From: a virus
IMG/VR virus record: IMGVR_UViG_3300002052_000213
Location: 1 to 64,000 of that record
Reading direction: 5' to 3' (one strand)
DNA length: 64,000 nt
Shown: in pieces, positions 20,776-52,481 of the stretch
Position numbering within the stretch: the first letter of the stretch is position 1
Layout: every line of letters begins with the position of its first letter
Position numbers and translations under genes: made by a program
The notes under the pieces: generated by a model
Database searches by the model: none
What the model was told of the DNA's origin: nothing
Seen by the model: the letters and a program-made list of their open reading frames with translations, nothing else

Positions 20776-21906
20776 TTAGCTAACTGGTAAAGTGCTTGGG
20801 AACGTATTCTTTCCAGACATAACTAAACAGGCTGCTAGAGTATCTGTGATACCAAATCCTCTTTCTGCATAGAAGTAGTATGCAACCATGTCTTTCTCAT
20901 AGACATCATCTCTGTAAGAACGTAGTTCTTCTTTGTGTACATCATATCCAAGTCTTGAAGTATCTACAACTATAGCACATCCTTCTGGAAGTCTCCTAGA
21001 TTCAGTGATAACTTTTAGTCCCCATACCTTTCCTATTTCTGCATTCATTAGTGGTTCTCTTCCACCATAAGCAGAAGCATCCAAGAAATTAACCTTGTCA
21101 TCATATAATAGGCTAGGCATGTCATTCCAAGACATCACTACAACATTAGGATCTCTACCATGAGAGATTAGCTTAGCTTTTCCTTTAAGGATACCCCAAG
21201 CGTTAATTCCAGTTTCTTGACTTCCTGGTTGAGCACCAGTGATTGCAAGTAGATTTCTACCTGGTACTTGGTAGTGTATTGTATTAACTGCAGCTAGAGT
21301 TGAATACAGATATATGCTTCCTGCAGCATAATCTATACCTTTGATAGTTCCTGCCATTGAAGTCTTGACAGAGTTTACTGTCCATACTGGAGCTGTCATA
21401 GGATATACTGAAGAGCCAGTAGCAAAACCTGTTACCGTTTCTGCAGCTTGTTTGTTAGAAGCATATATTAGTTGGTAATATGCAGCATCATCTATTTGTT
21501 CCTTGTATTGAAGACCTACTTCATAGATGTTATCTTTTATAACATCTCTCATAGCAAACTTAATTGCTTCTCTAGTTATCTTCAACCAACCAGCAACTTT
21601 GTACACTCCAATTGTAGTTCCAGTGTAAGCTGTTAAACCTACTGTTGCTTTTAGACTTGTAACATCTTTACCTTCAATTGCACCTGCTGTAGTCTCTATA
21701 GTGAATCCACCTGCAGCATTAGCTGAGGGGAATATCACTTCTTTACCTGGTTTGTTAAGGATATCTCTGTTTACTCTGTATAGTTGTGCCCAAGTAACTT
21801 TCTTGTGCACAATTTCCTCAAAAGTTGCAGCTATAACTTCAGGAGTAATAATACCTACATCTGCAGCAGAAATTGACTCGCCTGTTAGTTCCTCTATGTC
21901 TAACAC
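20776..21906 (-). CDS. Major capsid protein, HK97 fold
   Basis: 376 residues with a GTG start behind AAGGTGAG. It has the HK97 pattern: an N-terminal arm, the extended loop region (GGFTIETTAGAIEGKDVTS), the long spine helix (TREAIKFAMRDVIKDNIYEV) and the C-terminal P/A-domain strands (FFYAERGFGI-type ending as YYFYAERGFGI). It stands alone between a promoter and a terminator, so it is probably the most strongly transcribed gene. Its codons are slightly richer in G and C than the neighbours. Confidence 0.85.
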   Translation of the reverse strand: MLDIEELTGESISAADVGIITPEVIAATFEEIVHKKVTWAQLYRVNRDILNKPGKEVIFPSANAAGGFTIETTAGAIEGKDVTSLKATVGLTAYTGTTIGVYKVAGWLKITREAIKFAMRDVIKDNIYEVGLQYKEQIDDAAYYQLIYASNKQAAETVTGFATGSSVYPMTAPVWTVNSVKTSMAGTIKGIDYAAGSIYLYSTLAAVNTIHYQVPGRNLLAITGAQPGSQETGINAWGILKGKAKLISHGRDPNVVVMSWNDMPSLLYDDKVNFLDASAYGGREPLMNAEIGKVWGLKVITESRRLPEGCAIVVDTSRLGYDVHKEELRSYRDDVYEKDMVAYYFYAERGFGITDTLAACLVMSGKNTFPSTLPVS

Positions 21907-24015: not shown

Positions 24016-24032
24016 GATATATAAATATTCCT
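24016..24032 (-). promoter_or_regulatory. TATA-type promoter of the protease/scaffold gene
   Basis: GGAATATTTATATATCA on the minus strand, about 45 bases before the start at 23979. It is the clearest copy of the motif shared with 18332 and 20697. Confidence 0.6.
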
Positions 24033-24033
24033 T

Positions 24034-31958: not shown

Positions 31959-32813
31959 TTACATATATCCTAGATATCTAAGACGTTCCATAATCTTATC
32001 TTTTTGTTTTCTTCCTTCTCTCTCTCCACCAGATGAAACATTTATTTCATATTGAAAATCATCTATTGTTGTAGCTTTACTTTCTATTGGAGTAGTACAT
32101 TGCATACATCCTAAACTTCTAAATCTTAGACCATCTTTAGAGAAATATAAAGGATTAACTGGAACATCATATGTTTTAATATATTCCCAAATATCTAATT
32201 CGGTCCAATGTAATATTGGATGTACTCTTACATGCTCACAATCTTTACCAAAATCTGATTGATATAGTTCCCATAGTTCAGGTTCTACTAAAGACACTAA
32301 AGGAGCATCTCCTTCTTTAAGTTCTTCTTTAGTCTTCTCTCTAACTACTTTCCATTCCCACATATGTGTTCTTGGGCTAAAATAATGTTCTTTACTTCTT
32401 ACTCCTAATTCATCCCATCTTATACCTAAAATAGCAGCATCATAATGTTCTTTCTGAAATAATTCCTTTAATGCCATAGTTTTTCTACACATACAACAAT
32501 TAAATATTCCATCCTCACTTTCTAAATCTATTTCCTTACAATCTTCTTTCTTAGCTATCTTTAGTGGTATATGCCACCCAGAGGATATCATATCTCTGAA
32601 CTTATACATTTGAGGAAATAATTTACCTGTATCTATATGTACTATATCAAATGGTATTTCATAAAACATATTAAATATCATATGTAACAATACTGTACTA
32701 TCTTTACCAGTACTCCATAACATACATGGTTTCTTGAATCTAGCTTTAGCTTCTCTTAGAATAAATTCTGTTTTACTTATTAAACTTTTTAAATCTCTAT
32801 AGTAATATTTCAT
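31959..32813 (-). CDS. cysD: CysD-like PP-loop ATP sulfurylase/PAPS-reductase family protein
   Basis: 284 residues. The PP-loop MLWSTGKDSTVLLHM, HIDTGKLFPQMYKFRD, the ending RFRSLGCMQCTTPIESKATT and EREGR follow CysD, the catalytic subunit of sulfate adenylyltransferase, along nearly the whole length; the family also contains PAPS reductases. CysD makes APS from ATP and sulfate. The GTPase partner CysN, APS kinase and a sulfotransferase are not visible in the window, so it may use host partners or do another nucleotide reaction. It is last in the sugar cassette. Confidence 0.75.
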   Translation of the reverse strand: MKYYYRDLKSLISKTEFILREAKARFKKPCMLWSTGKDSTVLLHMIFNMFYEIPFDIVHIDTGKLFPQMYKFRDMISSGWHIPLKIAKKEDCKEIDLESEDGIFNCCMCRKTMALKELFQKEHYDAAILGIRWDELGVRSKEHYFSPRTHMWEWKVVREKTKEELKEGDAPLVSLVEPELWELYQSDFGKDCEHVRVHPILHWTELDIWEYIKTYDVPVNPLYFSKDGLRFRSLGCMQCTTPIESKATTIDDFQYEINVSSGGEREGRKQKDKIMERLRYLGYM

Positions 32814-33612
32814 TTAACTCAACTTCTTTTACTATAATATTTCCTTCATATTCGTATGATATAGCTACTTTATTTCTTCTTCCGAAACATGGATATGCTG
32901 ATATAACGAAATCTTTAGTTCTTATAACTTTATCCATATTTAAAATATTAAAGATATTATCACTAGACAATATTCCTTCTCCTTGAAAAGTTAATGGATG
33001 AGAACTCCATATTGGAACATGTAAAGTTTCTTCATCAAAATGTTTCCCTATTGGAAACTTATATTTTTTTAAATCTGTCTTTGAACCATGATCTGAAGTA
33101 ATTACAATATTATCAAATATTTCTCTATATTTTTCTATAATAGGATTAATTTCTCCATAACAGAATTTAAGTTCTTCTTCATATGTTTTATGAATGAAAT
33201 GATGTTTACTCATTACAAAATGTCCTCCTCTTAGATGAATAAATATAATTAATGATTCTTCATTTACAGTAACATTAATGTCCTTTTCTATTTGTTTTAT
33301 AATTTCTTTTTTAGATGTATTTACATTAATTTTACTTAAAATTGGAAGGAAAGAATATTTTTTACTAATTTTATAATCATCAAAGATAGTTCTATAGGTA
33401 TGAAAACACATTCCAGCTCTCCATATTTTTCCTTTATCTTTAATAGAATATAAAAGAAGTTCAGGAGTTGTTAATCCAGTTATCATTGAAAATATAGATG
33501 GAAGAGTCCAATTACAATTAGCTATACATTCATATTTATAAAAATCTTTAAAATTTAAAATGTGCGAATAAGAATAATTAACAGCATCTAAAACAACAAA
33601 TAAAGTTCTCAT
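32797..33612 (-). CDS. Alkaline-phosphatase-superfamily protein (first of three)
   Basis: 271 residues from the ATG at 33612, which overlaps the FkbM stop as ATGA and has GGGAG before it. LFVVLDAVNY holds the first metal Asp, CNWTLPSIFSMITGL the nucleophile site, and IVITSDHGS the late metal ligands. The nucleophile is Thr, not the Cys/Ser in CxPxR that sulfatases convert to formylglycine, so phosphotransferase or phosphodiesterase activity is more likely. It may add or remove a phosphate-linked group on a glycan. Confidence 0.65.
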   Translation of the reverse strand: MRTLFVVLDAVNYSYSHILNFKDFYKYECIANCNWTLPSIFSMITGLTTPELLLYSIKDKGKIWRAGMCFHTYRTIFDDYKISKKYSFLPILSKINVNTSKKEIIKQIEKDINVTVNEESLIIFIHLRGGHFVMSKHHFIHKTYEEELKFCYGEINPIIEKYREIFDNIVITSDHGSKTDLKKYKFPIGKHFDEETLHVPIWSSHPLTFQGEGILSSDNIFNILNMDKVIRTKDFVISAYPCFGRRNKVAISYEYEGNIIVKEVELNEILL

Positions 33613-34238
33613 TTTTTCTCCCAATATGGTCCAATATTAGTAAACCCTTCTTTATTTAATATTTTAGTACATACTCCCTTTGCTCCACTATGCCAAGAAA
33701 TAAATAATTTCATTTGAGGATTATTTCTTAACAAATTTATCATTCCTGGTATAGCATATCTTTCTGCTCCTTGAATATCTAGTTTAATTAAATCTAAACG
33801 ATCTTTAATTATTTCATCTAGTGCTATTACTCTATATTTACTCCAAGGAGGATATGTTCTACCTGGAGGTGTAGAATGTTGTAAATCAGATAATCCAAGA
33901 CACAATGGTATTACATTTTTAAATCCATTAATAAAGGTAGCAATCATTAACCTAGTAAAATGTTTATAATATGGTTCAAAAGCATATACTATTCCTGTAT
34001 TTTCCATTTTCTTAGCAGCTAAGAATGCATAATATCCAGTTTGTGATCCACCATCTACCACTATCATATCCTTCTCTACTACACCTTTCCAAGATTCTGA
34101 TTGTCTATTTTCCCATCTACCTGAATTTGCTATTGATTTTTCACTTGATCCTTTACTAGTTTTAGAGAAGCAATATTTAATTCCAAAGTGTTCTATTATT
34201 TCATAATCATCTAGAATTGTATTTGAAATTTTATTCAT
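33609..34238 (-). CDS. FkbM-family methyltransferase
   Basis: 209 residues. MIVVDGGSQTGYYAFLAAKK is the SAM-binding loop, followed by YAFEPYYKHF, VIALDEI and LIKLDIQGAERYAIPG, the sequence of the FkbM family, which O-methylates sugars and small molecules. It overlaps both neighbours and probably methylates a sugar built by this cassette. Confidence 0.8.
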   Translation of the reverse strand: MNKISNTILDDYEIIEHFGIKYCFSKTSKGSSEKSIANSGRWENRQSESWKGVVEKDMIVVDGGSQTGYYAFLAAKKMENTGIVYAFEPYYKHFTRLMIATFINGFKNVIPLCLGLSDLQHSTPPGRTYPPWSKYRVIALDEIIKDRLDLIKLDIQGAERYAIPGMINLLRNNPQMKLFISWHSGAKGVCTKILNKEGFTNIGPYWEKK

Positions 34239-35004
34239 TTAAATCAACTTCTAACCAAGGAATTTCCAATAGAGTTCTATATTGATGCAAATCTGGTCCA
34301 TGACCTACATAACCATTCTCTTCAGGAAATCCTAATGCTTCTCCATGATCTGAGCTTATTACTACTTTCTTATTCTTAGGAATTTCTTTTAATAAATTCT
34401 TAACTTCGTCTAATATCAATATCACATTGCTGATATATCCTTCTCTACATTCATCTATGCTTAAATTTCCTCTTTTAACATAATCCCACATTATTCCCTG
34501 AAATCTCTTTCTTTCATCTATATTCATTTCCTGTAAATGTTTCTTTTCTTTGTTTTCTGTCCATTCTAAAAGAAGTCCCCTTCCTTTATTTCCTTGTGGA
34601 TGTTCTAACCAAGGAAAGTGAGGTTGTAAATAATGAATTATTATTCTTTTATCTGGATATTTTTTAATTGTATTTATACCTATTCTAGTTATAGTATCTG
34701 GTCTTACTCCATTTAACTCTTCATCCCATCCTATATCCCAAGCATCTACAATAGTAAAGAAATGCTCTCTATTTATTTTACTTAATTTAAAATTCGTAAC
34801 CATAGGATTTCCAGATACATATATTAATTCAGGGTATGGTTTAGTGAAGTTATCTCTTAACCACATCCAAGTTCCAGTATTAAGAGATTCTACTTTCTTT
34901 AATTTGCCTTTAATATTATTAAACATCTCAAATACGTCATATCTCATAGCATCTAACAATATTAAAATATCCCATTTCTCTTTCATAACTTTTATTTTTT
35001 TCAT
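34231..35004 (-). CDS. Alkaline-phosphatase-superfamily protein (second of three)
   Basis: 257 residues. ILLDAMRYDVFEMF is the N-terminal metal site, IIHYLQPHFPWLEH the middle, VVISSDHGEALG and GHGPD the C-terminal site. It is a clear paralogue of the gene at 39244. A Thr in the TGTWMWLRDNF region is the likely nucleophile. The ATG overlaps the preceding stop as ATGA. Similar proteins occur in archaeal surface-polysaccharide clusters. Confidence 0.7.
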   Translation of the reverse strand: MKKIKVMKEKWDILILLDAMRYDVFEMFNNIKGKLKKVESLNTGTWMWLRDNFTKPYPELIYVSGNPMVTNFKLSKINREHFFTIVDAWDIGWDEELNGVRPDTITRIGINTIKKYPDKRIIIHYLQPHFPWLEHPQGNKGRGLLLEWTENKEKKHLQEMNIDERKRFQGIMWDYVKRGNLSIDECREGYISNVILILDEVKNLLKEIPKNKKVVISSDHGEALGFPEENGYVGHGPDLHQYRTLLEIPWLEVDLNE

Positions 35005-35567
35005 TTTAACATACCTATTTTAGTTTCCAATTCTTTTATAATATTTTTTACTTTATTTAAATTTTTAGATAATATAGTTATTCCATGCCTCTTACTATAA
35101 GAAGTAAATTCATATTTATATATATTAGAAAATAATTCAATTGCCTTTAATTCTTTAGGGTTTATAGTTGTATTTTTCATCACTATAAACCCATCTTCTT
35201 TAAGAAGATTATGTATAAGTGTTAATTGTTTAAAGTAATGAGATTTATCTGAATTTAGATCTAAATCAACAAAGCACATATCTACTTGAATATCTAAATT
35301 AGGAAGAACATCTAAATCATATCCTTCTATAAATTTCCAATGTGGATGATTTTTATATCTTACAATAAATTGTTTTCCTCTTCCATTATCTATACTATAT
35401 AATATTCCCTCTAACCCTAATAACATAATCCTTGTTGATCTACCAATACCTATTCCTAATTCTAAAATAGTACCATTTCCTATAGATTTAGCTAGTTCAT
35501 ATAATAGAATACCATGTTCATGTAAATAATCTCCACCTATTCTACGAATTTTATTATAAATTTCCAT
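35001..35567 (-). CDS. Class I SAM-dependent methyltransferase
   Basis: 188 residues with ILELGIGIGRSTRIML (SAM loop), LYSIDNGRGKQF, DMCFVDLDLN and a TLIHNLLKEDGFIVMKN strand, a Methyltransf_24-like arrangement. The substrate is probably a sugar or sugar nucleotide because of the neighbours. It overlaps the aminotransferase gene. Confidence 0.75.
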   Translation of the reverse strand: MEIYNKIRRIGGDYLHEHGILLYELAKSIGNGTILELGIGIGRSTRIMLLGLEGILYSIDNGRGKQFIVRYKNHPHWKFIEGYDLDVLPNLDIQVDMCFVDLDLNSDKSHYFKQLTLIHNLLKEDGFIVMKNTTINPKELKAIELFSNIYKYEFTSYSKRHGITILSKNLNKVKNIIKELETKIGMLK

Positions 35568-36684
35568 TATCCCACTTCTTTACAGTTTTAATAATATAAT
35601 GAACATCTTCATTAGTTAAATCTTGATGAATAGGAATATGCATAATATTTTTTTCTGTTCTTTCAGTATTTAATAAATCCTTTCTTATTGGACCAAATAT
35701 GGACCATTTATCATTCCTATGATAAAGTTGACTAACTTCTATATTGCTTTTCTTCATATATTTAGCAAAGTTATTTCTAGCCCATACATGAATTGGGAAT
35801 ATCCAATAATTAGAAGTTTTATTCTGAGAATAATCTAATAAATGTACATTTCCTAAGAAGGATAATTCTTCAATATATCTTTCAGCAATTTCTTGTCTTC
35901 TTTTATATACTTCATCAAAATATTTTAAAGATTCTATCCCAAATGTAGCTGTAATGTCATTCATGTTATATTTATATCCTAAATTATAGATATCTTTAGG
36001 AAATGTTCCTAAGTCTGTACTTACTCTATCTTTTTTATTTATACCAAACCATGAAAGAGTTTCTAGAAAATGTTTGATAAAGATATCATCTGTAACTACT
36101 GCTCCACCATCTCCACATGTAATAATCTTTACTACTTGAAATGAGAAGCATACAAATTCATTTTTATAAAAGTTACCAATATATCTATTCTCAAATTTAG
36201 ATCCTAAAGCTTGTGCTGCATCTTCTATAAGTACCAAATTATTTCTAATAGCTATTTTATGAAGTTCCCATAAATCACATGGATAACCAGCATAATGTAC
36301 ACACATTATTGCTTTAGTTTTATCTGTTATTCTATGTTCTATATCTTTAGGATCTATATTTAATGTTTCATATTTTATATCAGCAAATACTGGTTTAGCA
36401 TTTTGTTCTAATATGGAAGTGTTAGTAGCTTCCATAGTCCAAGGAGTAGTTATTACTTCATCTCCTACTCCTACTCCTGCTACTGCTAAAGATAATCTTA
36501 AAGCACTAGTGCATGAATTAGTAAGAATTAAATAAGGAAATCTAAATTTATCTTCTAGTAATTCAGTAAAAAGTTTAGCCTTTTCTCCTGTGTTTAGCCA
36601 TCCACTATCTATAGTTTTCTTTACTTCCTCACTAGCTTCTTTTGGGATGAATGGCGAGAACAATCTTATAGTATCTTTATGCAT
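35554..36684 (-). CDS. DegT/DnrJ/EryC1-family sugar aminotransferase
   Basis: 376 residues, full length for the family. NSCTSALRLSLAVAGVGVGD, DEVITTPWTMEATNTS, LIEDAAQALGSKF and the PLP-lysine region FSFQVVKIITCGDGG are all present. These PLP enzymes convert a keto group of a nucleotide sugar to an amino group. The substrate could come from the epimerase/dehydratase in the same cassette. Confidence 0.9.
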   Translation of the reverse strand: MHKDTIRLFSPFIPKEASEEVKKTIDSGWLNTGEKAKLFTELLEDKFRFPYLILTNSCTSALRLSLAVAGVGVGDEVITTPWTMEATNTSILEQNAKPVFADIKYETLNIDPKDIEHRITDKTKAIMCVHYAGYPCDLWELHKIAIRNNLVLIEDAAQALGSKFENRYIGNFYKNEFVCFSFQVVKIITCGDGGAVVTDDIFIKHFLETLSWFGINKKDRVSTDLGTFPKDIYNLGYKYNMNDITATFGIESLKYFDEVYKRRQEIAERYIEELSFLGNVHLLDYSQNKTSNYWIFPIHVWARNNFAKYMKKSNIEVSQLYHRNDKWSIFGPIRKDLLNTERTEKNIMHIPIHQDLTNEDVHYIIKTVKKWDNGNL

Positions 36685-37912
36685 TTTTAATTCTCCATTT
36701 ATTAGATAAAATAAAATCTCTTAAATGATTAAAATGTTCTGTTAATTCTTCACTACTACAGAAATCAGTTTCTATAACTGATTTAGAAGGATATCTAAAG
36801 AAATATTTAGAAAAATCTCTGGTAATAATTCTAACTCCATATTTCTCTGGATTCTTCCATATATCACAACTAGGAAATGGGATAAATAATGTAACTGGAG
36901 CTTTATCTGGTTGAGTATCTATAACAAATTGTTTAGTTTTCTCTATAGTTTCCCATGTTTCACCTGGGAGTCCAGCCATTAAAAATAATTTTACTCCTAT
37001 ATTATATTCCTTAAGTATTTCAATAGCTTTTTTAGATTGATTAACCGTTATTCCTTTATTCATTAATTTAAGTATACTATCATCTGCTGTTTCTATACCT
37101 AAGTTTACTTCTTTACATCCCATTCTAACTAACATTTCACATATTTCATCATTTAAAGCATCTACTCTAGCTTGACATCTAAACAATATATGTAAAGATT
37201 CAAATACTAGAGTTAATTCTCTGAGTCTTTTTTTATTCATAGTAAAATGATCATCTAATAAATCAAAATGTCTACAATTATATCTTTCAATTAAGAACTT
37301 TATCTCATTAGCAACATATTCTGTGCTATGAAATCTTACCGATTGAGGAATATTAGCACAGAAAGCACAGTTATATGGACAACCTCTAGATGTTATAATG
37401 GTAGTTGCAATTGGATCTTCATCATAAATAAATCCATATCCGCCCCATACACTCTTAGTTACTATTCTATTATCTTTCATTAAATGTCTAGCTGGAAATG
37501 GAATAGAATCTATATTTTTAATACTTTCACCATATATTATACCTTTATTTCCATTAGCAATTAAATCTAATATTGTTTTTTCTCCATCTCCAACAATTAT
37601 ATTATCATAATATCCTAGAAAGTCTTCAGGTAGATTACTAGCATGAGCACCACCTATAACTGAATTACCATCTCTTTTACTGAGATATTTTCCAATCTTC
37701 TTTGCATCCTCAGCTTCTGTAGTTGTTGCAGTTACTCCGTATAAATCACCTTTGGGTATTAAATTAAGATTAGAATTTTCTCTTAAATCACATATTTTAA
37801 CTCTATGACCTTCCTTCTCTAGTATTGCTCCTATATACAATAAACCTAATGGGGGATATACTGTAGGTTCATTTAATAAAGGAGCTGGTGGAATTATTAG
37901 AATTATTTTCAT
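36677..37912 (-). CDS. B12-binding-domain radical SAM protein
   Basis: 411 residues. The N-terminal 130 residues are a cobalamin-binding-like fold (IIPPAPLLNEPTVYPPLGLL, SVIGGAHASNLP). The radical SAM cluster motif is SRGCPYNCAFCAN at about 173-185, followed by LGIETADDSILKLMNKG and LFLMAGLPGETWE. Family members methylate or rearrange unreactive carbons. In this cassette it may C-methylate a sugar or lipid. Confidence 0.85.
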   Translation of the reverse strand: MKIILIIPPAPLLNEPTVYPPLGLLYIGAILEKEGHRVKICDLRENSNLNLIPKGDLYGVTATTTEAEDAKKIGKYLSKRDGNSVIGGAHASNLPEDFLGYYDNIIVGDGEKTILDLIANGNKGIIYGESIKNIDSIPFPARHLMKDNRIVTKSVWGGYGFIYDEDPIATTIITSRGCPYNCAFCANIPQSVRFHSTEYVANEIKFLIERYNCRHFDLLDDHFTMNKKRLRELTLVFESLHILFRCQARVDALNDEICEMLVRMGCKEVNLGIETADDSILKLMNKGITVNQSKKAIEILKEYNIGVKLFLMAGLPGETWETIEKTKQFVIDTQPDKAPVTLFIPFPSCDIWKNPEKYGVRIITRDFSKYFFRYPSKSVIETDFCSSEELTEHFNHLRDFILSNKWRIKNA

Positions 37913-37923
37913 TTATATCCACA

Positions 37924-38895
37924 TTAGAAATTGAGTATACTTTTCCAATAACTTTCATTATTTTTGTACCATTGAATAGTCTTCTTTATACCATTTGCTA
38001 AAGTTTCTTTCGGTTTCCAATTCAATTCATATCTCATCTTATTTCCATCTAGAGCATATCTGAAATCATCTTTTAATCTATACCCAGAGAATCCTTTAAA
38101 TAAATATTCCTTATTCATTAATTTTAATATTAAATTAACTATATCAGGTACTGATTTATATGTAGCTGGTGGTATATGATATATTTCTCCCACATTTCCC
38201 TTAGTTGCTATTACATCCATAGCATTACTAGAATCTCCTACATATATCCATCCTCTAATAGACTCTCCTTTATATAATGTGAATGATTCTTCAGATAGAG
38301 CCTTAGTAATTATTTTAGCTATTAATTTCTCTGGGTGTTGATATGGACCAAACATATTCATAGATCTTACAAATACTACTGGAACTTTAAAACACTCACT
38401 ATAAGATCTACAATACATTTCTGCAGAAGCTTTAGAAGCTGAGTAAGGATTCTGAGGATAAAATCTACTATCTTCTTTATAATATACGCCTAATGGTGCA
38501 TCACCAAATATCTCATCTGTACCCATATAGATAAATAATGGTTTCTTTTTTAGATATCTAATTATTTCTAATAGTGAAACTGTGCCTAAGATATTATTTC
38601 TTATGAACTCTTCGACACACATAAAACTTTTATCTACATGTGTAGAAGCTGCTAAATGATATACTATCTCAGTATTGTTTCCTATGGTTTCCTGAAATAG
38701 TAGTTTATTATTAATATCTCCAGATATAAACTTATAATTAGGATTTTCTTCTAAATCTTTCATATATATAGGATTAGAATCATAAGTACTTTTATCATAG
38801 TTAATAATTATCTTATCTTTATATGTATCTAATAAATATCTTATTAGATTAGTACCAAAGAATCCTGAACCACCTGTTACAATTATTTTATTCAT
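37924..38895 (-). CDS. NAD-dependent sugar epimerase/dehydratase (dTDP-glucose 4,6-dehydratase-like)
   Basis: 323 residues. GGSGFFGTNLIRYL is the NAD site, YMGTDEIFGDA carries the T-D-E dehydratase triad, and YSASKASAE the catalytic Tyr and Lys. RfbB-type enzymes make 4-keto-6-deoxy sugars, good substrates for the aminotransferase nearby. The stop overlaps no gene; the start overlaps the cupin stop. Confidence 0.9.
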   Translation of the reverse strand: MNKIIVTGGSGFFGTNLIRYLLDTYKDKIIINYDKSTYDSNPIYMKDLEENPNYKFISGDINNKLLFQETIGNNTEIVYHLAASTHVDKSFMCVEEFIRNNILGTVSLLEIIRYLKKKPLFIYMGTDEIFGDAPLGVYYKEDSRFYPQNPYSASKASAEMYCRSYSECFKVPVVFVRSMNMFGPYQHPEKLIAKIITKALSEESFTLYKGESIRGWIYVGDSSNAMDVIATKGNVGEIYHIPPATYKSVPDIVNLILKLMNKEYLFKGFSGYRLKDDFRYALDGNKMRYELNWKPKETLANGIKKTIQWYKNNESYWKSILNF

Positions 38896-39242
38896 TTAAC
38901 TTTACTCCTAAGTTCTTCATCAGTTATTGTTTCTTTATTAGGTTCCCACCATTCCATTATCCAATTATCAGCTTTAGATTCTAGAAGATGCGGAATATTG
39001 GGAGGGCAAACTATCATGTTTCCTTCTTTTAATTCAAATCTTATATCCTCTTTAGGATATTTATGAATAAATATTACTTCACCTTTAAGTATCACTCTGT
39101 ACTCTAAAACATTATGTGAGTGCCCACCTCTTAGATATCCTTTCTTAGTAAAGAATATCATAAGCTCTTGTAAAGGATCATCTTGTAACCTAAAAGAATA
39201 AACTTCTCCTCTCTTATCACTTTGTTCTAATTTAAATCTCAT
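38892..39242 (-). CDS. Cupin-domain protein
   Basis: 116 residues. GGHSHNVLEYRVILKGEV and the later CPPNIPHLLES are the two cupin metal-binding motifs. In sugar clusters such proteins can be isomerases or simple binding proteins; the exact role is not visible. Confidence 0.75.
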   Translation of the reverse strand: MRFKLEQSDKRGEVYSFRLQDDPLQELMIFFTKKGYLRGGHSHNVLEYRVILKGEVIFIHKYPKEDIRFELKEGNMIVCPPNIPHLLESKADNWIMEWWEPNKETITDEELRSKVK

Positions 39243-39243
39243 A

Positions 39244-39990
39244 TTATTTCACTCTAAACCAAGGTACTTTCCTTAAAGCTTCATTCACTATTCCTTTACC
39301 ATGACCAAATGTTTCACCTTTATATCCTAACATTTCTCCATGATCTGATGTTATATATACAACCTTATCAGTATTAATATTCTCAATAAGTTTTTTAACC
39401 TCTTCTAAGACAATTAAAAAATTAGCTATGTATCCTTCTCTCACTTCTTCTACATTTACTTTATCTCCAACATATTGCCATACCATTCCTTCAAGTTTCT
39501 GTAATTCTTCTCTAGTTAGAAATCTTTTATTTTTATCTTGTAAATAATCTCTCAGATTACCTCTTCCAACTCTTTTCTTAAATGATAGAAAGGGAGAATG
39601 TGGTTGCAGATAATGTATTATAAATCTCTTATCTGGATTCTCATCCATAGCTTGAATACTTGCTCTAGTAACTGAAGAAGGATGTACTGCATTTATTTTT
39701 TCATCCCAAGCCCAATCCCATACTTCTATGAGTCTATAAAATGGATTTTCAATTTTTAACTTATTGTTTAACTTCCATTCTGATACCCAAGCATTTCCTG
39801 ATACATATACTATATCTTTACATTCTCTATCAAAGTTATTATAAACCCATTCCTCTGTACAAGAACCTAAAGAATATCTAGGTTCTAATGTTCCAGATAT
39901 ATCATTGAATAATTCAAATACATCATATCTACATGCATCTAATATTATGAGAATATCCCATTCTTCATCTAATATTTTAAGAGCTTTCAT
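39244..39990 (-). CDS. Alkaline-phosphatase-superfamily protein (third of three)
   Basis: 248 residues. IILDACRYDVFELF, IIHYLQPHSPFLSF and VVYITSDHGEMLG with GHGKG match the paralogue at 34231 along the whole length. SCTEEWVYNNF aligns with its TGTWMW region and supplies a Thr as possible nucleophile. The ATG overlaps the glycosyltransferase stop as ATGA. Confidence 0.7.
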   Translation of the reverse strand: MKALKILDEEWDILIILDACRYDVFELFNDISGTLEPRYSLGSCTEEWVYNNFDRECKDIVYVSGNAWVSEWKLNNKLKIENPFYRLIEVWDWAWDEKINAVHPSSVTRASIQAMDENPDKRFIIHYLQPHSPFLSFKKRVGRGNLRDYLQDKNKRFLTREELQKLEGMVWQYVGDKVNVEEVREGYIANFLIVLEEVKKLIENINTDKVVYITSDHGEMLGYKGETFGHGKGIVNEALRKVPWFRVK

Positions 39991-40727
39991 TTTAGTGCTT
40001 CCATAAGTCTCTTTTTTCTAGGTAAAATATAACCTTCTTTTACAACATCTTCTAAAGGAAATACAGGCATATTTTTCATAAATTCTATCAAGTCTTCAAA
40101 AGTATTTACATTATATTCATCATATAAACTTCTAACATTAGGTAACTTCTTTAATTTCCCTTGAAGTATCTCTAATCTTTTTCTATAATGTTCATTGTCT
40201 ATATTTCTAAAATGTACTATAATATGTTTTATTTTTTTAAATATAGGAGATGTACCACTAAATCTAGCATCTATCATATCATGAGTTTCGTTTCTAGGAT
40301 TATAATATCTCAATTTATCTACTGGTCCTCCCCTAAATTGTGGATCAGGGTATCTTTCTTTCTTACATTTATCTTGATAAACAATAGTTGCTCTTGCTGA
40401 CACTGGAAATGCGTCAGATTCCTTTTCCCATAAGTCTTTTAATTCATCATATATATCTACATTAATCATTTCATCAGAGTCTAGATAATAAACATGAGAA
40501 GTTTTACATTCTCTAATAAGAAAATTATAAGCATTTATCCATTTACCTGTTATTTGTGGTCCTGTAAATACTGTAACATTATCCTGTTTTTCTAAATATT
40601 CTAATGTTCCATCAGTAGAATTTGAGTCAAGAACAATTATATCATCAAATTTCTTTAAACTCTCTATACAGTGTTTAATAGAGTATATACAATTATATGT
40701 TAAAACTATACCAGTAATTGTTATCAT
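39987..40727 (-). CDS. Family 2 glycosyltransferase
   Basis: 246 residues. ITGIVLTYNCIYSIKHCIES, VLDSNSTDGTLEYL and YYLDSDEM (the DxD-type metal site) are GT2 hallmarks. No membrane segment is seen, so it should act in the cytoplasm, moving a sugar onto a growing glycan or a protein. It overlaps the GT4 gene by ATGA. Confidence 0.85.
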   Translation of the reverse strand: MITITGIVLTYNCIYSIKHCIESLKKFDDIIVLDSNSTDGTLEYLEKQDNVTVFTGPQITGKWINAYNFLIRECKTSHVYYLDSDEMINVDIYDELKDLWEKESDAFPVSARATIVYQDKCKKERYPDPQFRGGPVDKLRYYNPRNETHDMIDARFSGTSPIFKKIKHIIVHFRNIDNEHYRKRLEILQGKLKKLPNVRSLYDEYNVNTFEDLIEFMKNMPVFPLEDVVKEGYILPRKKRLMEALK

Positions 40728-42052
40728 TTTTTAGTTTCATTCCTTTCTATTACTTCATCTAAATCTTCTATTGTCTTTTTCATTTTCTTTTTAATTTGTT
40801 TCTTTTTGATTTTCTTATATAATTTTCTAAATTCCTCTTGCTTCTTCTTATCTTCCATATTTCTTTTCTTTTGTTCTAGTTTAGGAACTTCTTCTAAGAA
40901 TGGAATCCAATAATTTTCCACTACTCTATCCCAATCATAATCCATAGCTAACTTTCTAGCTTTGTTGCCAAATGTAATTATTTTCTTAGGATGATTATAT
41001 GCATCTTCTATAGTATCTGCTATTGAATATACATCTGGTAAAGCAGTACAAGCATTAATAGCTGTGGTTAATATATTTTCTCCACTACAGAAATTTTTAA
41101 CTAACCATCCACATTTACCATAATCTACCATTTCACTCATACTGGAGAAATCAGTTACTATGTTAGGTCTTCCACATGCATTAGATTCCATAATAGGAAG
41201 ACCAAATCCTTCTCTCTTAGATGGGTATAATTGAAAATCAAATGAATTATACATTAAACACATTTCCTCATCTGTTAATCTAATATGAGACAAAACTGGA
41301 TCAGTAAATCTAACTATTTCATCTAATCCTTGCTTATGCACAAATCTTGGTAAAGGTAACCCTCTAGTGTCTGTTGGATTAGTGTGACAATATACAAATA
41401 TATCTTTTCTAGCATCTGGGTTATTATCAAAAAATAATCTTAATGCAACAAAACATCTAGCCCATGATTTTCTATCTTCTTTATCACTATTAGCAGCTAC
41501 TCTACCAATTACTACTGCTTCTGGAGGAAATCTAGTTTCTTTTCTAGCTTCTTTTATAGGTATTGGATGATATGTTTTAACATCTACTCCATGAGGAACA
41601 TAATAACTATCTATTCCTACATTCTTTAATTCCTCCATTTGAAACTTACATAGAGCTAGAACATAGTTATATTCCTTAGTTAAATTAATTAATTCCTCTG
41701 GATAGTTAGTATGATCTTGTGGAGAATATAAAACATTTATAAAAGGCATCTTAGGAAACCAAGGAAATGCCCACCAATCTGTATGTAATATACACATATC
41801 TGGTCTAAGTCTCTTAGCATGTAATTGACAAGATACTTTACCAAATTGACCTATCTTGCTAGGTAAATGAGGTACTCCTTCAATTTTCATAGTACCTCCT
41901 GGCTCTAAACCATAATATGCTGACACAAATACATTATATCCTCTTTGTATTATTCTACTAGTTACATTTCTAGTTACATTACCATATCCACTTTTAACAA
42001 ATGCAGCTACAGAGTGCCATAAAATTCGTAATAATTCTTTTTCATTAGACAT
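40724..42052 (-). CDS. Family 4 glycosyltransferase
   Basis: 442 residues. The N-terminal half has FVKSGYGNVTRNV (nucleotide-sugar domain) and the C-terminal half YPSKREGFGLPIMESNACGRP, the E(x7)E retaining GT4 motif. The last 60 residues are Lys-rich and may bind the membrane or nucleic acid. It is the first gene of the sugar cassette and directly follows a strong hairpin that ends two bases before the start. Confidence 0.85.
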   Translation of the reverse strand: MSNEKELLRILWHSVAAFVKSGYGNVTRNVTSRIIQRGYNVFVSAYYGLEPGGTMKIEGVPHLPSKIGQFGKVSCQLHAKRLRPDMCILHTDWWAFPWFPKMPFINVLYSPQDHTNYPEELINLTKEYNYVLALCKFQMEELKNVGIDSYYVPHGVDVKTYHPIPIKEARKETRFPPEAVVIGRVAANSDKEDRKSWARCFVALRLFFDNNPDARKDIFVYCHTNPTDTRGLPLPRFVHKQGLDEIVRFTDPVLSHIRLTDEEMCLMYNSFDFQLYPSKREGFGLPIMESNACGRPNIVTDFSSMSEMVDYGKCGWLVKNFCSGENILTTAINACTALPDVYSIADTIEDAYNHPKKIITFGNKARKLAMDYDWDRVVENYWIPFLEEVPKLEQKKRNMEDKKKQEEFRKLYKKIKKKQIKKKMKKTIEDLDEVIERNETKK

Positions 42053-42094: not shown

Positions 42095-42394
42095 TCATAT
42101 CTCTACTATAATTTTTCCCCATATACCTTTAAAAGTATCTAAATCATACTTTGTTAGAATTTCATCTAACTCTTCCCATGAGGAAAAATTCTTATTATCA
42201 CTTTGCACTAATCCAGCTTTAGTTATTAAAGCATATGTCTGAAAGTCTTCTGCTACCTTTACTATGATATTTGATATTAATATTAGAAACCCACCAATTT
42301 CTTTATCTTTGTATTTCTTTCTATTTTTTACATACTTTACTACTTCTTCAAATGTTTTCTTATTCCAGAACATATAATGATGTTCAACTCTCAT
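42095..42394 (-). CDS. Hypothetical protein
   Basis: 99 residues, start overlapping the upstream stop as ATGA. It begins MRVEHHYMFWNKKTFEEV and has one hydrophobic stretch (GGFLILISNIIVKVAED). No family is recognised. It ends the small-gene operon just before the sugar cassette. Confidence 0.6.
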   Translation of the reverse strand: MRVEHHYMFWNKKTFEEVVKYVKNRKKYKDKEIGGFLILISNIIVKVAEDFQTYALITKAGLVQSDNKNFSSWEELDEILTKYDLDTFKGIWGKIIVEI

Positions 42395-42666
42395 TTATAA
42401 TGCTCCTCCAACATATCTAACATATTAAATATTGGAACTTTATCTTCTAATGCTCTCTCTGCTAACTCTGGATTTATTTGTGATAGTACTTCTACAATGA
42501 ATTTCTTTCTTGCTTTACCATATGCTATCTGAATACTAGATTCTGATTCTAATACATCATCATCTAGTATTTCTTTGCATATCATTAGCTCTCTATATCT
42601 CCTATCAGATAGATTATCCAAGTAATTTGGATTTCTTATTTTATCAGCTAAAGATAAATTCTTCAT
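42391..42666 (-). CDS. Hypothetical helical protein
   Basis: 91 residues, rich in Leu, Glu and Lys, predicted all-helical (NPYLDNLSDRRYREL-like order NPNYLDNLSDRRYREL, then KARKKFIVEVLSQINPELAER). It is coupled to the next gene and lies directly behind the eS30 homologue. No function can be assigned. Confidence 0.6.
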   Translation of the reverse strand: MKNLSLADKIRNPNYLDNLSDRRYRELMICKEILDDDVLESESSIQIAYGKARKKFIVEVLSQINPELAERALEDKVPIFNMLDMLEEHYK

Positions 42667-42678: not shown

Positions 42679-42903
42679 TTATAGTAAATTGTCAACCTTT
42701 TTAAGATTAGTTTTACTTCTTAATAATCTCTCATATCTCTTTCTATTTGCAACTCTAGGACATTTATGTTTTCTATGATGATAATACTTACGTTTCTCAA
42801 GCTTCCCTCTTCTTGATACTTTTTCCTCTTCTCTAAATCCTCTTTTGAACTGTAATCTATCTCTCATTTTACCTGCTTTACTTAATGATCCATGACTAGG
42901 CAT
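42679..42903 (-). CDS. rps30e: Homologue of archaeal ribosomal protein eS30
   Basis: 74 residues. The start MPSHGSLSKAGKMRDR matches the conserved opening of archaeal/eukaryotic eS30 (M-P-x-H-G-S-L-x-K-A-G-K-V-R), and CPRVANRKRYERLLR matches its ending P-R-x-x-N-R-x-x-Y. Between them is a basic insert of some 25 residues with Arg/Lys/His, longer than usual. eS30 lies near the decoding site of the small subunit. A virus copy could replace the host protein in ribosomes. The match is by eye but covers both ends. Confidence 0.75.
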   Translation of the reverse strand: MPSHGSLSKAGKMRDRLQFKRGFREEEKVSRRGKLEKRKYYHHRKHKCPRVANRKRYERLLRSKTNLKKVDNLL

Positions 42904-42906
42904 TGT

Positions 42907-43083
42907 CTATTTTACCATCCTTTCTAATAATGAAATAATTCTATTTAACAAATTACATACATCATTTAATGTTTTTGTTGTATATTCTTCTGCACATATT
43001 GGACAATAATCTACTCCTACAAAGTCTCCATGTTTTAAACATTTAATCCATTTATATTCTTCATTATTAAATATATTTTCCAA
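42907..43083 (-). CDS. Small zinc-ribbon-like protein
   Basis: 58 residues with a TTG start directly behind the stop of the phosphoesterase gene. CLKHGD, then YCPICAEEY, gives a C-x2-H...C-x2-C zinc site; the rest is a helix (NDVCNLLNRIISLLERMVK). Weak ribosome site, but the frame fills the gap exactly. Confidence 0.55.
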   Translation of the reverse strand: MENIFNNEEYKWIKCLKHGDFVGVDYCPICAEEYTTKTLNDVCNLLNRIISLLERMVK

Positions 43084-44229
43084 TTAATCCACTTTCACTT
43101 TCTCTATTTCTTCTAGATGTTTAAGTAACTTCTCAGCATAATATCTCATGTTTTTATATTCTAATGCAGAGTCTTCAAGTTCATCAGTATATACATCTGG
43201 ATCTGGTTTTATAGGAATAACACCTACTTCATTATCAAAGAATAAATACATAAGTACTCCACTTGGTCTTTGACTAATAGTTTTCTCCCATCTTTGAAAT
43301 GCACCAGTACTATCTAATATGAATGATTCAAAGTTCATATCTGTAGATAACCAATGATAGTGACCTATACATACTCTCTCTATTGGTATTCCTTTAAGTC
43401 TATATTGACCTATTATTTTCCATACATCTCTAATTAAATCATAACTTATTGGATAGTAAGCATTAGAACCATATCCATGAGTGAAAAGTATATTAAAATT
43501 TCCTAAGTCTTCTCCAATGTTATATATCATATGATGTCCACCATACTTTACATTATCCATAGCTCTTTTAATATACATAGCATAATTCTCTGCTAACTTC
43601 TCATGTGTACCTTTAATAATGAAAACATCATTCACTTCAAGTGTTTTACTTATTTGATCTATAGTGTCCTTAATCACCATTTCTGCTAATGCTGTTTGCC
43701 AATGACCTCTAGAAGTTATTGTTCTAACTTCTTGTAATCTAAATACTCCTCTTCCACATACAATATCTCCATTCAATATTATATTTATATGTGGAATGTT
43801 AAAAGTAGATGTTAATACTTTAAGAACTAATTTTACATTATGAATTGTTGACCAATAAGTTAATGGTAAATGATCAGTATCACCAAGATGTAAATCACTT
43901 ATAACTAGAGTTACTCTAGCTTCTCCAGTTTTATTCTTTTCAAATGCTTTAATGGGAATTGGTACAAAAATACTTTTTCTATCTTTAAACTTATATTTTA
44001 ATGGTTTAAGTTTCTTAAGATCTTCTAAAAGTATTTCTCGTATTTCTTCATCAGTAAATTCATCTGTAGTTTCTTGTTCTTTTCTAGGAATATTCCATTT
44101 ATACATTCTTCTTGAAATAGTTGATCTTGCACAACCATACATGTTTGCTATTTCAGTCATAGTTTTATCTTCTTTCCAATATAGTTTAAGTAATTCTTCT
44201 TTACTTAAATCTTCTAAATTTAATGCCAT
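43084..44229 (-). CDS. Helix-turn-helix protein fused to a calcineurin-like phosphoesterase
   Basis: 381 residues. Residues 1-50 are a helix-turn-helix (MTEIANMYGCARSTISRRM). From about 100 on, the metallophosphoesterase motifs occur in order: SDLHLGD, NGDIVCG, GTHEK, FTHGYG and GHYHW. The fusion suggests a nuclease or phosphatase guided to DNA. Related HTH-phosphoesterase proteins occur in archaeal viruses and mobile elements, but the substrate is unknown. Confidence 0.75.
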   Translation of the reverse strand: MALNLEDLSKEELLKLYWKEDKTMTEIANMYGCARSTISRRMYKWNIPRKEQETTDEFTDEEIREILLEDLKKLKPLKYKFKDRKSIFVPIPIKAFEKNKTGEARVTLVISDLHLGDTDHLPLTYWSTIHNVKLVLKVLTSTFNIPHINIILNGDIVCGRGVFRLQEVRTITSRGHWQTALAEMVIKDTIDQISKTLEVNDVFIIKGTHEKLAENYAMYIKRAMDNVKYGGHHMIYNIGEDLGNFNILFTHGYGSNAYYPISYDLIRDVWKIIGQYRLKGIPIERVCIGHYHWLSTDMNFESFILDSTGAFQRWEKTISQRPSGVLMYLFFDNEVGVIPIKPDPDVYTDELEDSALEYKNMRYYAEKLLKHLEEIEKVKVD

Positions 44230-48849: not shown

Positions 48850-50281
48850 TCCTAAGCCTTTCCGTTAATTCTTCCATAAATTCCTCTGCATCTTCAGGAG
48901 GTCTTTCTCTTACTTCTTTTTCTGGTTCTTCTTCTGGTAACTTACCAGTTTTCTTCCATTCATATATCATATCATCTAACATACTTGTTGGTAGATCTTC
49001 TAATTGTCTTAAATGTTTCTCTAACTCTGGATCATATTTAATTAGTGCTCTTCTAGCTAATGTAGCTATTCTTCTAGCTTTAGCTAAAGTAGTAGCAGGT
49101 ATTTTAGATTTAAATTTCATAGCAGTAAGATTTTCTCTAGGTATTCCATTAGCATCCATATATTTGTAAAATATTTTTTCTAATATTTGATCAGCTAATC
49201 TTACTTGTAATGCTTCTACTCTATATTCAAATTCTATAGCTTTAACATCTGCATATGCTGTTCTTCCTGTTTGTGGTGGCTCCATTACTAGTGATACAGA
49301 TTTACCTAATCCTGTACACATAATGTCAGCATAGTAATAAAGTAATCTTTCACTTCCTGTAAGATCTGGAGAAGGTAATCTTTCTACTTGGATTTTATTT
49401 ATTCCTTTAAAGGTAAATATATTATCTGTTTCTATATCCTCAAATTCTTCTGCTATCTTATCTACTTGTTCATTAGTTGGAACTACGTTTTCATCTCCTA
49501 CTGTAATTATTAATCCACCACTTCTATATGCTCCTTCACCTACATTTCTAGAAATATTTAATCTAATAATAGCTTGTCTATAAGTTGATTCTAAAGGAGT
49601 ACATCCTAGAAATGATTCTCCTAATCCCCATAACTTAAAATGAGAAATTCTATCTCTACCATCACTTCTTACTCTTATGTTCTTTTCTCCTACTTCTATT
49701 ACATTCTTCTTCCATTTAATTTTCTCAAAATAAATACCACCAGATCTAACAAATCCAGTAAAGTCACCGTCTTTCTCTAATTTAACAAATCCTGTTTGTT
49801 CATCTCTAATATAATCTATGTATTTTGGATTCACTATCTGAGCTTTTGTTATGTCTTTTTCATCAGTTGTATAACCAAGTTCTACCCATGCATTACCAGC
49901 TAAGAAGGAATCTCTAACTATTTCTTCCATTAATCTATTAAGTTTAATAGTCTTTGCCCATTCTAATAATTGTTTTACTGTTTCTTTCTCTCCTTCTAGA
50001 AAGTATCCTGGACCAATCATCCAATCTATATAATCATTGATTACTCTAAAAGTTAAAGCATCTAAATGATATAATTTCTCTAATTTACTTAATGGAACTG
50101 TCTTAGTTACTCTTTCTTCAAGTTGTGCAAATAGAGTGCTATCATCTTTATTCTTACCTGCATGTGTAGTAACCACATATAAGTCAGATGATAATTCAGT
50201 AGTTTCTTCTTTAGGTTTTGGACTAATAGAATTTGCTAAAGTCTTACGAATACTATTGATGGCATCTCTTACTGCACTCAT
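48839..50281 (-). CDS. Portal protein
   Basis: 480 residues. The pattern of a phage portal is visible: LYHLDALTFRVINDYIDWMIGPGY, SFLAGNAWVELGY, ISHFKLWGLGESFLGCTPLE, and the helix of the ring with ERLLYYYADIMCTGLGK. The C-terminus is acidic (PEEEPEKEVRERPPEDAEE). Portals form the 12-fold ring through which TerL moves DNA. It is far from the capsid genes (27 kb) and from terL (45 kb), unusual for tailed viruses. Confidence 0.85.
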   Translation of the reverse strand: MSAVRDAINSIRKTLANSISPKPKEETTELSSDLYVVTTHAGKNKDDSTLFAQLEERVTKTVPLSKLEKLYHLDALTFRVINDYIDWMIGPGYFLEGEKETVKQLLEWAKTIKLNRLMEEIVRDSFLAGNAWVELGYTTDEKDITKAQIVNPKYIDYIRDEQTGFVKLEKDGDFTGFVRSGGIYFEKIKWKKNVIEVGEKNIRVRSDGRDRISHFKLWGLGESFLGCTPLESTYRQAIIRLNISRNVGEGAYRSGGLIITVGDENVVPTNEQVDKIAEEFEDIETDNIFTFKGINKIQVERLPSPDLTGSERLLYYYADIMCTGLGKSVSLVMEPPQTGRTAYADVKAIEFEYRVEALQVRLADQILEKIFYKYMDANGIPRENLTAMKFKSKIPATTLAKARRIATLARRALIKYDPELEKHLRQLEDLPTSMLDDMIYEWKKTGKLPEEEPEKEVRERPPEDAEEFMEELTERLRNEM

Positions 50282-50291
50282 CTATTTATTC

Positions 50292-50498
50292 CTACTTAGT
50301 TTTTAGAGTTTCTAACAGAATATCTCCTTCTCTAAGTAAAAGGTATATTCCTGCTCCAACTAAAACTCCACCTATAGCTCCAAATCCTAATGCTAATTCT
50401 ATATTTCCTTGAGCATACTGATCTTGAGCTGCTGTAAGGAAAAATACACCTATAGATATAAGAGTAGTTGAAGTTGTTAGAGTAAATTTCTTCACCAT
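50292..50498 (-). CDS. Small membrane protein with two membrane segments
   Basis: 68 residues with AGAGGT before the start. Two membrane segments (ISIGVFFLTAAQ-type and GFGAIGGVLVGAGIYLLL) with a short loop, as in holins. First of a four-gene membrane/protease cluster. Holin-like function is a guess. Confidence 0.6.
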   Translation of the reverse strand: MVKKFTLTTSTTLISIGVFFLTAAQDQYAQGNIELALGFGAIGGVLVGAGIYLLLREGDILLETLKTK

Positions 50499-50513
50499 AT
50501 TTAAACCTCTTTT

Positions 50514-50963
50514 TTATATATATTTTGCTAATTTATATCTTATTCGGTTAATACTTAAAACATAGAATAGAAACATAAGTGATATAGAGATAAAATACCA
50601 ACATGGAATACAATCTCCCCAAGATAACTGTACATAACAACCAGCACATGTCCATTCATCAGGTCTAATGAATCTTCCTAACCATACAAAATATAATCTA
50701 TCTTCTACGAATGTCATTAAAGCTATATTTCCTATACCATAAAATAATGAAGCTAATCTATTCTTTTTCTTAATAGCATCATCTATGAAAGGATACCATG
50801 CCATTATAATAACTAACATTAACATAAAGAAATGATATATTGATGGTTTTGGAAATAAGAAAATACTTTTGTTACTTGCTGGTAACAATATTGTTTCTAT
50901 TTTTGCATACCATAATGACCATAGAATACACATAATAGTGCTTATAGAATATTCTAATTTCAT
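50514..50963 (-). CDS. Polytopic membrane protein
   Basis: 149 residues with about four membrane segments (for example FFMLMLVIIMAWYPF and FISISLMFLFYVLS). Two Cys pairs (CAGC, CIPC) lie in the outer loop between segments three and four, perhaps a disulfide or metal site. Coupled to the next gene by ATGA. Confidence 0.6.
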   Translation of the reverse strand: MKLEYSISTIMCILWSLWYAKIETILLPASNKSIFLFPKPSIYHFFMLMLVIIMAWYPFIDDAIKKKNRLASLFYGIGNIALMTFVEDRLYFVWLGRFIRPDEWTCAGCYVQLSWGDCIPCWYFISISLMFLFYVLSINRIRYKLAKYI

Positions 50964-51196
50964 TTAACATTCACCTTATTTGATAATGTTATTAAATCTT
51001 GTATACTTAACAATATATATCCAACATAAACTATAAAGGCTCCTATTAAATAATGATGAGGAATAGGTAATCCTTCAAATGTACCACTCCAAATAGGTGA
51101 ACCTAAAGTATAAGCAAATTCAAATGCTCCCCAAAGAAAAGTAAAATATCCTGCATTAAAAAGTATATGCCATATAAGCCTATACTTAAGGGACAA
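50960..51196 (-). CDS. Membrane protein
   Basis: 78 residues; TTG start behind GAGGT and overlapping the protease stop region. Two membrane segments (HILFNAGYFTFLWGAFEF and LIGAFIVYVGYILLS). Function unknown. Confidence 0.55.
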   Translation of the reverse strand: MSLKYRLIWHILFNAGYFTFLWGAFEFAYTLGSPIWSGTFEGLPIPHHYLIGAFIVYVGYILLSIQDLITLSNKVNVK

Positions 51197-52175
51197 TATA
51201 TTCTACCTCTAAGTCAGACTCTACAAAGTCATAATGACAGTAGATAGTACTAACATTACTTCCTGCAAATAAGTTACCAAGTAAGAAATCATCTTCCATA
51301 GCTAATATTAAACTACTAGAGTCTCCACCTGCTGAGAATCCATTCTTCATAACTAAACCACATGGACCAAACATTAATGTTCCTCTACTATACCTAACAC
51401 TTCCATACCAATCATTATCATATAGTTTACCATCTTTAGTGTATCCAGTTGTTCTACCAAATTTATGAAGTAATTCTCCTTCAATTCCTCTTCTCTTTCC
51501 CTTTGGTGCTCCTATCTGCTCTACTTCAAATATTACATCTGATAGAGGTATTGTTATTTTAACTAACCCTATATCAACTCTATTTATGAGTGTATCTCTC
51601 TTGAAGAATCTATACATTTTATATAATGTATTTCTATATGGACATTTAAAATCAGTAAACTTTAGTTCAACATATCTCCATAATTCTCCTACTTTATCGT
51701 TTAAATCTCCAGTATCATATTTACTTGGTACTGTATATGGAGTCAACTTAGGTAAAGTATTTTCATTTGCACAACAATGATTGTTAGCTAATATACCTAT
51801 AAATTGTTCTTCCAATAGTTTCTTATTCTTAGCAAATCCACCAACTGTACAAGCAGTAGCAGTAAGATAATATGACATACCACTACATCCTGCTCTTACT
51901 GGTCTAGGATTATCTTTACAAGATAAAGCTACTACTTCTCCAATTTCAACTATATCAGTAGGAATACCATCTATTTCTTTAGGTACTAAATCCTTTAGAG
52001 ATACAAGTTCTTTAGGTAATTTCTTTTCTACATATATTCTAAAACTAGGTTTATCTGGATATATTATACCTTCACTTTCTTTAGGTTTTAAAGTACCAGA
52101 AAACCCATTTACATTCCTTTTCTTTTTAAGTTCTTTCCAATATTTGTCAATTAAACCATTTATCACAGTATCCAT
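51186..52175 (-). CDS. Trypsin-like serine protease
   Basis: 329 residues from the ATG at 52175, two bases behind the upstream stop. The triad is visible as ILANNHCCAN (His), RVDIGLVKI (Asp) and FSAGGDSSSLIL (Ser in GDSS). The N-terminal 90 residues (PDKPSFRIYVEKK) resemble Nal1-like proteases. No signal peptide is seen. It could mature the virion or attack the host envelope. Confidence 0.75.
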   Translation of the reverse strand: MDTVINGLIDKYWKELKKKRNVNGFSGTLKPKESEGIIYPDKPSFRIYVEKKLPKELVSLKDLVPKEIDGIPTDIVEIGEVVALSCKDNPRPVRAGCSGMSYYLTATACTVGGFAKNKKLLEEQFIGILANNHCCANENTLPKLTPYTVPSKYDTGDLNDKVGELWRYVELKFTDFKCPYRNTLYKMYRFFKRDTLINRVDIGLVKITIPLSDVIFEVEQIGAPKGKRRGIEGELLHKFGRTTGYTKDGKLYDNDWYGSVRYSRGTLMFGPCGLVMKNGFSAGGDSSSLILAMEDDFLLGNLFAGSNVSTIYCHYDFVESDLEVEYIVP

Positions 52176-52176
52176 A

Positions 52177-52467
52177 TTAAACACCAAAAGCATGTAAAAC
52201 TAATGTTATAATTATACCACCAGCAACAGCTCCAGAAATTGAAAATATTAATTCTCTCCAATCTCTTCTTTTTTTCTTATTTTCATTTTTAATTTCTTTC
52301 ATATATGAATTAAAATTATCTGTACATGAGTCCATTTTATCTGACAATGTAGTAAATTTATCTTCAATCATTTCAGTTATTCTTAGAAATCTCTCATTAC
52401 AGAATTTAGCTGTTATAAAATGTGGATTAGTTGGGTTTTCATAATCAACACTATTTTCATCACTCAT
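52177..52467 (-). CDS. Small protein with coiled coil and C-terminal membrane segment
   Basis: 96 residues from the ATG at 52467, with GGTGA five bases before; the ATG at 52482 overlaps the polymerase stop but has no ribosome site. Residues about 20-65 form a coiled coil (MIEDKFTTLSDKMDS) and the end is one membrane segment (GAVAGGIIITLVLHAF). The form resembles hemolysin XhlA-like lysis proteins. Confidence 0.55.
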   Translation of the reverse strand: MSDENSVDYENPTNPHFITAKFCNERFLRITEMIEDKFTTLSDKMDSCTDNFNSYMKEIKNENKKKRRDWRELIFSISGAVAGGIIITLVLHAFGV

Positions 52468-52481
52468 GATATTCACCAGCA

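Follow-up and report, generated by a model that had tools for sequence, protein, structure and literature searches.

A virus-encoded homologue of ribosomal protein eS30 with an insert common to several archaeal viruses

Background

We describe a divergent homologue of the ribosomal protein eS30 encoded by a tailed archaeal virus, the 65,235-base IMG/VR record IMGVR_UViG_3300002052_000213; the stretch analysed here, positions 1 to 64,000 of that record, is referred to as the window. The gene is carried by seven virus contigs, namely the window (G000) and six more in IMG/VR, and in four of them the protein is lengthened ahead of its conserved C-terminal block. The original prediction for this DNA, a virus-encoded eS30 homologue with a basic insert between conserved ends, is thus borne out both by profile matches and by the six additional contigs, among which three show an insert of this kind as well.

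An eS30 homologue encoded by the virus

The gene (Table 1) lies within a dense array of same-strand ORFs and is read from an ATG at 42903 to a stop codon at 42681-42679; the plus strand of this interval has many stops and no open frame. Its 74-residue product, MPSHGSLSKAGKMRDRLQFKRGFREEEKVSRRGKLEKRKYYHHRKHKCPRVANRKRYERLLRSKTNLKKVDNLL, begins MPSHGSLSKAGK and carries the block PRVANRKRYER. No second eS30 was found in the 65,235-base record.

Table 1. Position of the eS30 homologue, its parts and other features of the window
Feature	Coordinates	Strand	Evidence or remark
Phage-capsid-like protein, presumed major capsid protein	20776..21906	-	Pfam match just under cut-off; led to related viruses and to the Thermoproteota link
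Downstream small ORF	42391..42666	-	Begins 12 bases past the eS30 stop, at 42666; matches no family
Viral eS30 homologue, 74 aa	42679..42903	-	ORF, profile matches and PDB match
Residues 60-74, variable C-terminal tail	42682..42726	-	AlphaFold2; continuation of a helix predicted (low confidence)
Residues 49-59, PRVANRKRYER, conserved eS30 C-terminal block	42727..42759	-	
Residues 20-48, basic middle region with an excess of about 19 aa over cellular eS30	42760..42846	-	Ends in HHRKHKCP (viral KH-x2-P pattern)
Residues 1-16, N-terminal tail MPSHGSLSKAGKMRDR	42856..42903	-	PDB match; S. solfataricus counterpart (Pro2) touches h44 near the A site (PMC11698992)
Upstream small ORF, 58 aa, CxxC motif	42907..43083	-	Same array; stop at 42907, 3 bases before eS30; no Pfam match
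HTH and calcineurin-like phosphoesterase	43084..44229	-	In contig G401 a phosphoesterase homologue is about 4 kb away from eS30

The profile search against eS30 families that had been proposed along with the prediction came out in its favor. The NCBIfam model NF006817 (S30e) recovers the window protein with E=3.9e-8 (33 bits, curated cut-off 75) and the Pfam model PF04758 (S30) with E=0.014 (16 bits, cut-off 27), while its best PDB match is the archaeal S30e in 9fhl (E=1.5e-4), with two matched stretches that correspond to both ends of the protein. A profile of our own, built from 53 distinct cellular eS30 proteins of Thermoproteota, assigns 32.5 bits to the window protein, 39.9 to that of contig G005 and 30.2 to that of G401, against a top score of 16.7 bits in 300,000 shuffles of these three proteins. 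At the level of sequence comparison the homology of the window protein to eS30 is secure; as its scores fall under both curated cut-offs, we regard it as a divergent homologue or variant instead of an equivalog of cellular eS30.

Cellular archaeal eS30 proteins (NF006817, PF04758) and the viral protein are basic and display the same order of elements, an N-terminal tail of the form MPSHGSL-x-KAGK followed by the PRVxNRxxYE block, which in the window protein occupies residues 49-59. Pro2 and His4 of the tail are present in all seven viral proteins and in 53/53 of the cellular proteins. Beyond these common elements the window protein departs from the cellular pattern in several respects: at 74 residues it is longer than any of the 53 (49-64 residues), the PR block has its conserved Pro at residue 49 instead of residue 30 (the position in 53/53), its C-terminal tail is unrelated, and the TPK at residues 17-19, found in all 53, is lost, as it is in G401 and G402. 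Most Thermoproteota have one cellular eS30 per genome. As a separate observation, one Candidatus Bathyarchaeum genome has two eS30 paralogues (L005 and L009, 3001-3189), both of 62 residues; for a ribosomal protein such a duplication is unusual.

The viral genome and its relatives

That the gene resides in a genuine virus genome is evident from the terminase, capsid and Rad51-family matches in the record, which also encodes a DHH protein, ThyX and a dCMP-deaminase-like protein, and from a morphogenesis module that is syntenic in G401 and in a Thermoproteota contig. Tblastn of the window eS30 against INPHARED phages and a search of PHROGs returned no match, and neither did the window capsid and portal in INPHARED. 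The window PolB has distant haloarchaeal virus matches alone in INPHARED, and at just 23-25% identity these place the virus far from described families; its search in IMG/VR with single-sequence patterns, which were too strict for the purpose, gave no match.

The long form of eS30 is encoded, besides the window, by L002 in G005 (58 kb), L079 in G401 (56 kb) and L146 in G412 (121 kb), and a near-canonical form of 56-63 residues by L083 in G402 (136 kb), L084 in G403 (77 kb) and L092 in G404 (133 kb). The total of seven contigs is a minimum: the scans relied on short exact peptide patterns, which missed G412, a contig recovered through its capsid alone. Most of the six further contigs have capsid or replication genes in common with the window. 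In a gene-by-gene comparison of the first six contigs (window included, G412 left aside), the capsid and adjoining genes are common to the window, G401, G402 and G404, and in G401 capsid, portal, terminase and adjoining genes are syntenic with the window. G005 and G404 both have PolB, DHH and many more genes (29 matches), and what links G403 to the window is mainly PolB and a trypsin-like protein. Among the capsid-related contigs of more than 50 kb in the IMG/VR scan, eS30 is found in G401, G402, G404 and G412, or 5/8 counting the window; none was seen in the capsid-bearing contigs G405, G406 and G410, which may be incomplete.

Several other features of these genomes deserve mention in their own right. 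The terminase ORF (1831-4227, plus strand, 798 aa) has an intein-like insert with a LAGLIDADG match, and long stretches of it are matched in G005 by a glycosyltransferase ORF (50193-52553) and a large ORF (23282-26110), which suggests inteins there too. The trypsin-like protein (51186-52193, minus strand), protease-looking and lacking a Pfam match, is 40% identical to its G403 counterpart in otherwise distant viruses. A putative tape-measure protein of 1559 aa (12159-16838, minus strand) contains dozens of short repeats like 'IPxVxDxTQxIxQxLxEVE', and another protein (24034-26262, minus strand) consists of a repeat of about 16 residues, 'R-x-I-L-T-D-S-I-L-K-G', which is unusual in the virion region. 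A ten-kb sugar/envelope block (31959-42052, minus strand) encodes PAPS-reductase-like, DegT aminotransferase, GDP-mannose dehydratase-like and glycosyltransferase proteins along with radical-SAM-like and alkaline-phosphatase/sulfatase-like ORFs, and may modify host-surface or virion glycans. Finally, there are two ParB-like proteins, one (54929-55987, minus strand) with a weak, under-cut-off Pfam match to sigma-70 region 4 and the other (59770-60675, plus strand) judged by eye alone.

The virus-specific insert

The four long viral proteins have 11-19 extra residues ahead of the Pro-Arg block, the Pro of which is displaced to residue 49 in the window, 43 in G005, 41 in G401 and 43 in G412. All four have a Gly and then H-x2-KH-x2-P-[RK], and the KH-x2-P-[RK] part of this signature occurs in 0/53 of the cellular eS30 proteins. 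As these 53 are mostly the best-scoring cellular matches, the weakest-scoring ones were examined as well: none of the 12 of 20 that were readable has an insert, and in 20/20 the profile match spans as many codons as profile positions. The viral KH before the PR block might be equated with that in the EKHKEVPRV of some cellular forms; we rejected this correspondence as the spacing differs and the excess residues are still there. The length excess and the displaced PR block are firm observations, with the exact borders of the insert remaining uncertain because the Pfam alignment runs the middle region against eukaryotic eS30 almost without gaps.

The occurrence of the long form in distant viruses suggests a viral lineage of the protein, and the three near-canonical forms, which in the case of G403 reach roughly 50-70% identity to cellular eS30, suggest a separate or later capture. 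An eS30 tree, which had also been envisaged as a means to place the host, has 56 usable columns, very long viral branches and weak supports; with so few columns it does not decide between a viral lineage and separate captures, and it provided no host placement.

Residence and selection

In viromes, genes for ribosomal proteins are frequently marked as cellular contamination, and this gene is short, so one might take it for a fragment of a cellular eS30 present in a viral contig by chance and devoid of any role. We find this hardly credible: recurrence in seven different contigs already contradicts it, no cellular genes adjoin eS30, and the GC content of the gene (0.302) is that of its surroundings (0.293 for the record). 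Moreover, at least three downstream neighbors are kept between G005 and G412, and the coding sequence is conserved where synonymous sites are saturated. When the window gene is compared with its relatives, conservation is lowest at codon position 3, and the G005 and G412 proteins, 60% identical, give pS 0.86 and pN 0.30 by a rough Nei-Gojobori estimate that, being saturated, has qualitative value only. The eS30 protein sequence is thus under selection. In G404 the gene has another position, flanked by homologues of two genes that are direct neighbors in G005, and this implies that it moved or was gained more than once.

The host

TACK and Asgard are the only archaea described as having eS30 (PMC11698992). 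We detected it in 282/300 sampled Thermoproteota genomes and, at the same threshold, in Sulfolobus alone among 14 control genomes. One Thermoproteota genome bin includes a 23-kb contig, G234, that encodes the same capsid as the window (E=1.9e-46) and, in preserved order, other homologues of window genes; G234 has an ordinary cellular form as its own eS30 (L042), and the contig could be a binned virus contig instead of a provirus. More distant capsid relatives are present in 52/257 genomes of the class of Bathyarchaeum. The distribution of eS30 taken together with the G234 capsid link indicates that the host of the window virus is probably a member of Thermoproteota, in keeping with the TACK/Asgard clue first drawn from the presence of the gene; a host lacking eS30 is unlikely.

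A proposed role in the host ribosome

The proximity of eS30 to the decoding centre, on which the original prediction built, is documented for Saccharolobus solfataricus: eS30 is located in the mRNA entry channel of its 30S subunit, with Pro2 touching h44 next to the A site and the protein touching h16 as well (PMC11698992). In eukaryotes the eS30 tail contacts eIF1A, and a conserved His within it stabilises codon-anticodon pairing (PMC11698992); on our reading of the common HGSL motif, viral His4 would correspond to this residue. The expectation that rRNA-contact residues be retained thus holds for the N-terminal tail (Pro2, His4), with those of the middle region perhaps partly lost, TPK being gone. 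Given the retention of Pro2 and His4 and the position of the insert between the N-terminal tail and the PR block, the viral protein would, we infer, sit at the eS30 site and change the environment of the entry channel or A site.

We consider it somewhat probable, from these sequence features, that a captured and remodelled eS30 replaces or competes with the host eS30 in the 30S subunit and alters initiation or decoding. In such a scenario an archaeal eS30 would have been captured by a virus, then remodelled, and would be expressed during infection to bind the host 30S at the eS30 site, either replacing host eS30 or beside it. The conserved N-terminal tail would reach helix 44 next to the A site, the PRVxNRxxYE block would anchor near h16 at the mRNA entry channel, and the basic insert between both anchors might make extra contacts at the channel. 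The outcome could be ribosomes biased to viral mRNAs, or a changed state of initiation or elongation. There is precedent in viral bS21 and bL12, which enter host ribosomes, with viral bS21 altering ribosome activity (PMC6375957). Counted against this proposal are the scores below both cut-offs, the TPK loss, the eS30-less G405, G406 and G410, and the AlphaFold2 model of the window protein, whose mean pLDDT of 55.6 means that the insert is not placeable in the 30S by docking. More tentatively, an archaeal tailed-virus lineage might possess its own eS30 class, with a dedicated insert that yields specialised infection ribosomes and switches decoding or mRNA selection (e.g. leaderless versus leadered) at the entry channel and A site.

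With their basic character and their place between the two anchors, close to h16 and the entry channel, the extra residues could also serve to poison the ribosome: the viral protein would enter the 30S, and its insert would block the entry channel or the access of aIF1A, causing host translation to stop or ribosomes to hibernate instead of being retuned to viral mRNAs. E. coli ribosomes with phage bS21 were about 5% active (PMC6375957), although this result may stem from host incompatibility. We regard such a shut-off factor as unlikely, since late in infection a tailed virus depends on the ribosomes of its host and replacement fits better than poisoning with the three other viruses whose near-canonical eS30 has no long insert. 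Yet another conceivable function lies outside the ribosome, with a protein of eS30 descent repurposed as a basic nucleic-acid binder in DNA compaction, packaging or RNA binding. The very basic composition (26 K+R versus 7 D+E in 74 residues), the lost TPK and the long tree branch would be compatible with it; however, conservation is strongest at Pro2 and His4, the decoding-site contacts, and in parts of the PR..NR..Y block, residues that bare nucleic-acid binding is not expected to keep in seven viruses, and we deem it quite improbable.

Carried by at least seven virus contigs, of which four encode the virus-specific insert, this small-subunit protein of the decoding site suggests that viruses have repeatedly remodelled the eukaryote-like TACK ribosome. 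According to the structure paper (PMC11698992), the function of archaeal eS30 had not been illuminated by any earlier work, so the viral forms are also of use as natural variants for probing the roles of the tail and middle region.

Comparison with known viral ribosomal proteins

The literature that we searched, most subscription journals being outside its scope, contains no report of a viral eS30 in archaea. In the list of viral ribosomal proteins by Mizuno et al. 2019, eS30 appears only as the antisense fau of a murine retrovirus (PMC6375957). This fau/eS30 of FBR murine sarcoma virus, the only earlier listed viral eS30 that we found, is an untranslated antisense capture by a retrovirus, unrelated in origin and effect to the archaeal-virus protein. 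With the bS21, bL12, bL9 and other proteins of the same list (PMC6375957), the viral eS30 shares the theme of tailed viruses capturing a small, peripheral protein of the ribosome that probably replaces the host copy; here, in contrast, the protein is the archaeal/eukaryotic eS30, the virus is archaeal, and a viral-specific insert is common to several viruses. Closest in their setting are the ribosomal proteins of archaeal viruses, of which L21e of Hafunaviridae was the first (PMC8651126) and bL19 of Kunpengvirus, a virus of Bathyarchaeia, followed, its authors noting that L21e had been the sole case before (PMC10848311). Within the literature searched these two are the only ones reported, and both are proteins of the large subunit, whereas eS30 belongs to the small one, at the decoding site.
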